From Candidatus Magasanikbacteria bacterium GW2011_GWA2_56_11 (GTDB lineage: Bacteria > Patescibacteriota > Patescibacteriia > Magasanikbacterales > UBA922): a stretch of DNA of 45,541 nucleotides. Position 1 is the first letter of the stretch. Each line of letters starts with the position of its first letter. The translations under genes were made by a program, and so were the position numbers. Location of the stretch: NCBI GenBank assembly GCA_001004885.1, contig LCRX01000010.1:1-45541 (forward strand). The letters are read 5' to 3'. The notes under the pieces are model-generated. The model was not told the origin of the DNA, did no database searches, and saw only the letters and a program-made list of their open reading frames with translations. Of this stretch, positions 21,466 to 36,488 are shown one piece after another.

Positions 21466-21699
21466 CGGGGCGTAGCGCAGCCTGGTAGCGCGCTCGATGC
21501 CGTGCCGGACAAAGGTTGGCCGTTCTCCCGCGTGAGTCCAGAACACGAGGTTCATGGACCCCACGTGCCGCGAAGATTGGTGGTTATGTGCTCCGGAGAC
21601 GTCCCAGCGTCCCCGCCAGCCACCACCCAGGTCCTGCAGGGAGAATTTGCCGCCTCCGGCCTAATCGAGAGGCCGCTGGTTCAAATCCAGCCGTCCCGA
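21466..21699 (+). tRNA. tRNA-Pro-like gene interrupted in the anticodon loop by structured sequence
   Basis: Both tRNA halves are clear. 5' half: acceptor CGGGGCG, TA, D arm GCGC-AGCCTGGTA-GCGC, G26, anticodon-stem strand CTCGA (21493-21497). 3' half: TCGAG (21665-21669), variable AGGCC, T arm GCTGG-TTCAAAT-CCAGC, acceptor CGTCCCG, A73. The halves pair in both acceptor and anticodon stems, and C1-G72 with A73 is Pro-like. Between the anticodon-stem strands lie 167 nt instead of 7. The insert folds by eye into nested helices: 21504-21509/21655-21660, 21523-21529/21639-21645, hairpin 21536-21544/21550-21559, and 21579-21584/21622-21627. I could not find a canonical group I core, and no excision leaving seven nucleotides gives U33. 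Intron, tRNA-like RNA or broken gene are all open. Confidence 0.7.
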
Positions 21700-21751
21700 C
21701 CTCCGGGCCGGGCGGTCATTCCTCCCTTCCGTTCCGGATACCGCCATCCCC

Positions 21752-30348: not shown

Positions 30349-30481
30349 ACGACTTTAGTTAGGTTTGTACTTCTCTAGAATACAATAACTCAATCCGGCG
30401 GTCAAGAAAATTATGGCTGCCGGGTTACGCAATATTGCGTCGGACTTACTAGCCGCCGAAGCATTGGAATGTACTGTCTGG

Positions 30482-30555
30482 TCGGGGTGACACGACTCGA
30501 ACGTGCGACCTACTGGTCCCAAACCAGTCGCTCTAGCCAACTGAGCTACACCCCG
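30482..30555 (-). tRNA. tRNA-Pro(TGG)
   Basis: Acceptor CGGGGTG/CACCCCG, D arm GCTC/GAGC, anticodon stem ACTGG/CCAGT with loop TTTGGGA, T arm GCACG-TTCGAGT-CGTGT, A73. An intact Pro tRNA, in contrast to the interrupted Pro-like gene at 21466. Confidence 0.95.
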
Positions 30556-30606: not shown

Positions 30607-30918
30607 TGCCGAGGGCCAGGATCGAACTGGCGACACAAGGATTTTCCTTCTCTCCAAACGTTTCCGTAAGGCTTGGACTATCTCTTCATCCCGGTTTAAC
30701 GGGAGCTGGGCGCTTATCGAGGATTATTGTTGGGACTCACCTCGTAGTCTCTACACCTTCCCTGGGACTAAACCCTCCAGGGCTTGGCTCGGGATTACCA
30801 TTCCGGCGCACAATGGCTGCGGAAACAGGCTTCCCCGAATTCACCCAGTTTTGCACTCCGGATTACTCCAGAGGGGACCGAAAACCAGTCCTCTGCTCTA
30901 CCACTGAGCTACCTCGGC
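30607..30918 (-). tRNA. tRNA-Phe(GAA) with a group I intron
   Basis: Exon 1 (30918-30887) is GCCGAGG, TA, D arm GCTC-AGTGGTA-GAGC, A, GAGGA, CT. Exon 2 (30646-30607) is GAAAA, TCCTT, GTGTC, T arm GCCAG-TTCGATC-CTGGC, CCTCGGC, A. Joined, the loop is CTGAAAA, giving anticodon GAA and an ordinary tRNA-Phe. The interruption is exactly between U33 and G34. Confidence 0.93.
30647..30886 (-). ncRNA. Group I self-splicing intron in tRNA-Phe
   Basis: The 240-nt insert shows the group I core. P1: exon GAGGACU pairs with the guide GGUCC(CC)UC (30879-30871), with the U-G wobble at the 5' splice site. P- and Q-like blocks AATTCGGGGAA and AATCCCGAGCCAAG; R-like GTAGAGACTAC (30754-30744) and S-like ATAGTCC (30681-30675), whose GACTA/TAGTC pairing is P7. 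The last intron base is G. There is no endonuclease frame. This layout is like the small IC3 introns of cyanobacterial tRNA-Leu and Azoarcus tRNA-Ile. Confidence 0.92.
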
Positions 30919-30967
30919 TACGGCTAAATTGTACTGCTTTATTCGCTAGGCGGCAAACCGCGCCTAG

Positions 30968-31039
30968 TGGACCGGAGAGGAGTCGAACCTCCGACCACCT
31001 CATTGCAAATGAGGCGCTCTACCACTGAGCTACCGGCCC
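30968..31039 (-). tRNA. tRNA-Ala(TGC)
   Basis: Acceptor GGGCCGG/CCGGTCC (one G-T pair), anticodon stem CCTCA/TGAGG with loop TTTGCAA, T arm GGAGG-TTCGACT-CCTCT. First gene of the minus-strand Ala-Phe-Pro tRNA cluster. Confidence 0.95.
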
Positions 31040-31234
31040 TCGCCAGGGACTCGCCTCTCCCCGAAGCTTGAAATAGCTAAAAAGCGAAGAGAGTATACCA
31101 AGCAGAGGCGCGGCTGTCAACCTTGCGCCGAGAGATAGGCTCCGGGTAAGAAAGCGCCCGGATGGCCAAAAACCGGCTGGCGCAATCCGCGGATTGGTGA
31201 TAATATTTTTCCGGACCAAACCGGGAGGAAAACG

Positions 31235-36401: not shown

Positions 36402-36415
36402 CTCATCCTATGTTG

Positions 36416-36488
36416 CTCCCAGGGCAGGACTCGAACCTGCGGTATCCGCGTTAACAGCGCGGTGTTGTACCAGCTCAACTACCCGGGA
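36416..36488 (-). tRNA. tRNA-Asn(GTT)
   Basis: Acceptor TCCCGGG/CCTGGGA (one G-T pair), D arm GTTG-AGCTGGTA-CAAC, anticodon stem CCGCG/CGCGG with loop CTGTTAA, T arm GCAGG-TTCGAGT-CCTGC, G73. Confidence 0.95.

Follow-up and report, generated by a model that had tools for sequence, protein, structure and literature searches.

The window analysed here, a 45,541-nucleotide stretch of contig LCRX01000010.1 from Candidatus Magasanikbacteria bacterium GW2011_GWA2_56_11, carries on its minus strand, from 30918 to 30607, a tRNA-Phe(GAA) gene in which a group I intron of 240 nt separates U33 from G34. The 5′ exon (30887 to 30918, 32 nt) comprises the 5′ strand of the acceptor stem, the D arm, the 5′ strand of the anticodon stem, C32 and U33, and the 3′ exon (30607 to 30646, 40 nt) comprises the GAA anticodon, the T arm, the 3′ strand of the acceptor stem and A73; CCA is not encoded. 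The intron itself occupies 30647 to 30886. An Infernal search with the Rfam group I model RF00028 (release 15), which the preliminary description of this locus had proposed as a check, gave a strong match from 30897 to 30654 over the full length of the model (positions 1 to 253), with a score of 69.4 bits for a gathering cutoff of 50 bits and an E value of 1.1e-15. When allowed to search for introns, ARAGORN reported tRNA-Phe(gaa) at c[30606,30918], in which GGACU and GAAAA are separated by an insert of 240 nt; run without introns, it called no tRNA-Phe at 30918 to 30607. The rebuilt tRNA is a cloverleaf with regular stems and a 7-nt anticodon loop, CUGAAAA; its only irregularity is one G·U pair in the anticodon stem. 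The splice junction can be shifted by one base in many relatives (a shared G), and we set it at U33/G34 because, by group I rules, the 5′ exon ends in U and the intron in G.

The gene is flanked on the same strand by tRNA-Ala(UGC) upstream (30967 to 31039), probably in the same transcript, and by tRNA-Pro(UGG) downstream (30479 to 30555), both called by ARAGORN. A promoter-like sequence, TTGACA-17-TATACT, precedes tRNA-Ala at 31092 to 31120 on the minus strand and matches the consensus, its sole mark, at 11 of 12 positions. The Ala-Phe-Pro gene order was seen again in relatives.

Elsewhere in the window, on the plus strand at 21466 to 21701, the intron mode of ARAGORN called a tRNA-Arg(CCU) interrupted by 160 nt. 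The halves of its acceptor stem, D arm and T arm seem genuine, but position 33 would be a G, no intron was detected there by Rfam, and a search of 49 genomes gave short matches to the 3′ half only. It is perhaps a disrupted tRNA.

The anatomy of the intron could be assigned along its minus-strand sequence. P1 pairs the exon strand GGACU (30887 to 30891), whose U33 is the 5′ splice site, with the internal guide GGUCC (30875 to 30879), and P10 pairs the adjacent intron strand UUUUC (30880 to 30884) with GAAAA in the 3′ exon (30642 to 30646). P2 forms a stem of 7 bp capped by a GUAA loop. Of the core helices, P3 is made of CUGGGUG (30842 to 30848) and CGCCCAG (30706 to 30712), and P7, the guanosine site, of GACUA (30745 to 30749) and UAGUC (30676 to 30680). 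An extra, P7.1-like hairpin, CGAGG...CCUCG (30718 to 30744), lies between P7 and P3. The U·G pair of P1 at the 5′ splice site, the P7 pairing and the terminal G, all named in the preliminary description, are indeed present, and so is the absence of an endonuclease frame that it had reported: the intron contains no sense-strand ORF of at least 60 aa, and its antisense frames matched no Pfam family above its cutoff. The intron thus lacks the homing endonuclease by which a mobile intron is recognized. The P10 pairing GAAAA/UUUUC did not figure in that earlier list of features.

Conservation of this structure was assessed in an alignment of 68 intron-bearing tRNA-Phe genes, by counting the 77 pairs of a predefined structure. 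Pairing was preserved in 95.4% of cells, compared with 79.3% after shuffling and 49 to 50% after sliding by one column, a measure that favors the structure over its slid versions because it was drawn mainly from the window sequence. Two-sided changes, which are stronger evidence than the share of paired cells, were found at 50 of the 77 pairs and in 929 cells, for a shuffled mean of 262 and at most 212 in the slid versions. Cells of P3 are paired in 99.8% of cases, with four pairs changed on both sides; P4 (99.5%) and P6a (97.3%) also display two-sided changes, the extra hairpin covaries, and P8 (71.5%) and P5 (77.8%) are the weaker stems. Both strands of P7 are invariant in the 68 sequences, and its pairs, like those of the D arm, never vary and are therefore silent on covariation. 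The GG at the 3′ junction is also invariant; the pattern by which 67 of the 68 sequences were found partly presupposes the terminal G, but L063, which BLAST found outside that pattern, has it too.

The two guide strands of the intron covary with the exons that they contact. All 68 homologues have the U·G pair of P1, and the variants of this stem track the host exon (GGACU/GGUCC, GGAUU/GAUCC, GGCCU/GGGCC and GCCCU/GGGGC). Likewise, 3′ exons read GAAAA or GAAGA, each with the matching guide in the intron, and one pair of P10 is UA in 37 homologues and CG in 31. Minimum free energy folding was unremarkable (z = −0.88). The case for the intron is thus made by the covariance-model match and covariation, not by folding energy.

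No other tRNA-Phe gene was found in the genome, which comprises 1.25 Mb in 23 contigs and is 99% complete. A covariance model gave 45 tRNA matches, and GAA was absent among the anticodons read from the loci extracted. BLAST of the spliced sequence against the whole assembly returned only the two exons of 30918 to 30607 and short matches to the D arm, and hence not the second, uninterrupted tRNA-Phe that the preliminary description had raised as the finding that would speak against its reading. With 23 contigs, such a gene could lie in an assembly gap. As this is the only tRNA-Phe found and the gene for PheRS-alpha is present, the host should depend on splicing. We also searched 379 genomes of the phylum, all at least 90% complete, with strict patterns for the intron and for an intact tRNA-Phe. 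The former matched 13 genomes and the latter 212, and none had both (expected, 7.3; P = 1.8e-5), a mutual exclusion that depends on a partial detector because the intact pattern matches only 212 of the 379; since 154 genomes fit neither pattern, the intron is at least as frequent as 13 of 379. The locus holds a real, complete group I intron within the sole tRNA-Phe gene found in the genome, and, judging from its sequence, this intron is very probably active.

Our reading, to which we assign a probability of roughly 0.93, is that of a single tRNA-Phe(GAA) gene interrupted after U33, just before G34, by a small group I intron that is probably autocatalytic. An Ala-Phe-Pro precursor would most likely be transcribed as one RNA from the minus strand. 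Once the intron has folded, P1, formed by the exon's GGACU and the intron's GGUCC, would display the U33·G wobble, and a guanosine positioned at P7 would attack after U33. The freed U33 would then attack after the terminal G, with GAAAA of the 3′ exon held on UUUUC by P10, and the products would be ligated tRNA-Phe and free intron. Transcription, both transesterifications and any aid from host proteins are predictions from the sequence.

Self-splicing in vitro is known for the small tRNA introns of Azoarcus and Anabaena. The present intron has no maturase or endonuclease frame, and ORF-less introns of 200 to 336 nt, the range observed in 107 CPR tRNA-Phe genes, occur throughout its family. These points argue against the idea that the intron does not act alone and that splicing needs a protein, either a maturase or a host factor. 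We nevertheless consider this idea as unlikely rather than implausible, because P8 and P5 are less well paired and many group I introns require protein help in the cell (PMC3984707).

The preliminary description had regarded a tRNA-Phe host with an insertion at 33/34 as unusual and had suggested a search of other Patescibacteria. The same insertion was confirmed by ARAGORN in the tRNA-Phe genes of 19 of 144 relatives. The arrangement is unusual with respect to the published bacterial tRNA hosts that we found, but it recurs within Patescibacteria and is not a one-off. A pattern scan of 84,980 GTDB species genomes yielded at least 115 matching stretches. About 110 of the 115 matches listed read as intron-bearing tRNA-Phe, and all but one of them are titled as, or are consistent with, Patescibacteria, although about 30 of the matches listed are titled merely "bacterium" or "group bacterium." The taxa named include Moranbacteria, Magasanikbacteria, Falkowbacteria, Yanofskybacteria, Wolfebacteria, Doudnabacteria, Peregrinibacteria, Gracilibacteria, Microgenomates and others. 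The exception, L169, bears the title Methylomirabilis, probably by mislabelling. Three of the scan matches (L081, L141 and L143) have the tRNA-Phe 3′ exon with a 5′ exon that was not located, and two candidates, from Hydrogenophaga (L153) and Brevibacterium (L190), were rejected as tRNA introns because no tRNA is found there.

In many relatives with the intron and in many without it, the gene lies between tRNA-Ala and tRNA-Pro, so both states exist at one locus. Two genera, g19 and g24, are mixed, with the intron present in G035 and G037 and missing from G018 and G023. Comparison of the intron tree with host lineage required 14 label changes, where the least possible is 7 and the shuffled mean 18.4, and 16 of 65 branches were starred. 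The tree therefore tracks host lineage only partly, and vertical and horizontal history are inseparable.

A separate feature of many Patescibacteria tRNA-Phe genes is G37 (loop GAAGA) where A is usual, whether or not the gene is interrupted (L062 to L066, L068 and scan matches), which bears on the modification of A37.

In the same family, the commonest site of group I introns is tRNA-Asn(GUU) at 35/36, where many relatives have one related to the tRNA-Phe intron. The genome of the window also has a tRNA-Asn(GUU) gene interrupted by a group I insert of 477 nt (L003, contig C15, 1382 to 1933), and the window contains an uninterrupted tRNA-Asn(GUU) at 36415 to 36488 that is rather different from that copy. 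ARAGORN named the host of the Asn-type introns Thr(UGU). We discarded this name, since the tRNA body has Asn-like features (U1-A72, G73) and the U·G pair of P1 falls at U35. These Patescibacteria introns resemble the tRNA-Phe intron in phylum and in their anticodon-loop site after a U, and differ in its position, 35/36 versus 33/34. In the anticodon loop, each CPR intron comes directly after a U, which is U33 in Phe(GAA) and U35 in Asn(GUU), and published introns of other bacterial tRNAs are known to do the same, after U34 in Leu(UAA) and after U36 in Ile(CAU) and in Arg(CCU). Insertion after a U is explained by the U·G pair that P1 requires; the GAA anticodon has no U, and U33 is the adjoining one.

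In the intron tree, Phe and Asn introns form separate clades, save for genome G037 (L218/L236), in which a Phe-type intron sits in tRNA-Asn. This intron (L236, 564 to 1186) combines a Phe-type core with a small HNH-like ORF near its 5′ end, whose Pfam HNH match is below the cutoff of that family. A similar small ORF is found near the 5′ end of the tRNA-Asn intron of genome G118 (L067, 992 to 1692), which was left out of the tree. HNH-like ORFs were found only in these two tRNA-Asn introns.

Two other observations were made in the genome of the window. A third group I intron lies in a 16S rRNA-like sequence (L002, contig C9, 17256 to 17542) and is followed by a reading frame whose beginning is LAGLIDADG-like. 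In addition, ARAGORN called two different tRNAs (L007 and L016) Ile(UAU), and no Ile(CAU) was singled out.

The tRNA-Phe intron might also represent the known proteobacterial and cyanobacterial tRNA intron lineage, subgroup IC3, newly moved to tRNA-Phe. Its P4-P6 sequence and GGUGUAGAGACUA motif closely resemble those of tRNA-Leu(UAA) introns from Bradyrhizobium and Mycetohabitans plasmids. However, these comparators, two proteobacterial introns obtained from plasmid records with an Azoarcus intron sequence as bait, run directly from P7 to P3, and the CPR introns have a hairpin of about 30 nt inserted there. Moreover, searches for relatives of the pre-tRNA, by BLAST in phages and plasmids and by pattern in viral contigs, gave only tRNA-Phe exon matches or none, and thus no relative of the intron, and the depth and spread of the introns in CPR speak against a recent transfer. 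We therefore find a new arrival of this lineage improbable.

It is far less probable still that the locus is a dead tRNA-Phe pseudogene with a decayed intron, its function being taken over by a gene elsewhere or by the host cell: CPR bacteria are generally regarded as living on other cells and an intact gene could sit in a gap between the 23 contigs, but the 1.25 Mb contain no other tRNA-Phe, an intact match is absent from all 13 intron-bearing genomes of the 379, and the two-sided changes preserve core and exon pairs across the family, unlike decay.

With a single interrupted gene as the preferred reading of the locus, a broader interpretation can be put forward, tentatively and at somewhat less than even odds. 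Patescibacteria may have seen a radiation of anticodon-loop introns that specialized by site according to the available U (Phe 33/34, Asn 35/36), that came and went within genera and were now and then carried from tRNA to tRNA by HNH-bearing forms, and that left an essential single-copy tRNA dependent on a ribozyme. Growth should depend on that ribozyme because no other tRNA-Phe was found. As standard ARAGORN misses the gene, such genomes can seem to have no tRNA-Phe, and this apparent loss is an artefact that matters to completeness claims in reduced bacteria. Closely related genomes with and without the intron make its gain, loss and site switching testable.

Several reports bear on these introns. 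Lui et al. 2021 (PMC8172020) state that group I introns in some CPR tRNAs made these hard to detect; the passages found name no tRNA, site or structure. The tRNAscan-SE 2.0 paper (PMC8450103) gives fMet and Ile2 as intron hosts, tRNA group I introns have been described in cyanobacteria and in alpha- and betaproteobacteria (PMC4033280), and another paper adds claims of Arg, Gly and Lys hosts in cyanobacteria (PMC5733544). tRNA-Phe is not named as a bacterial group I intron host in the literature that we found, from a search that lay mostly outside subscription papers and leaves priority unproven. The kind of element is already known; neither its host tRNA nor its insertion site turned up in the published lists of bacterial tRNA introns that we found, to which both are added here. 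The group I introns and insertion sequences of CPR 16S and 23S rRNA (PMC11270868) share hosts and ribozyme class with the tRNA-Phe intron; they reside in rRNA and often encode LAGLIDADG endonucleases, and tRNA is outside the scope of that paper.

The closest structural parallels are with the tRNA introns of other bacteria. Those of tRNA-Leu(UAA), tRNA-Ile(CAU), tRNA-Arg(CCU) and tRNA-fMet are likewise small and placed in the anticodon loop after a U that forms the U·G pair of P1, and the P4-P6 and GUGUAGAGACUA core is common to the tRNA-Phe intron and the tRNA-Leu(UAA) introns of the Bradyrhizobium and Mycetohabitans plasmids. The latter (L247 and L248), which we take to be of subgroup IC3, pass directly from P7 to P3, and the predicted hairpin of the tRNA-Phe intron sets it apart from that subgroup, which has none between these two elements. 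Subgroup IA introns carry P7.1 at the place of the extra hairpin. What further distinguishes the present intron from the known bacterial tRNA introns is its host, tRNA-Phe, and its site at 33/34, ahead of the whole anticodon.
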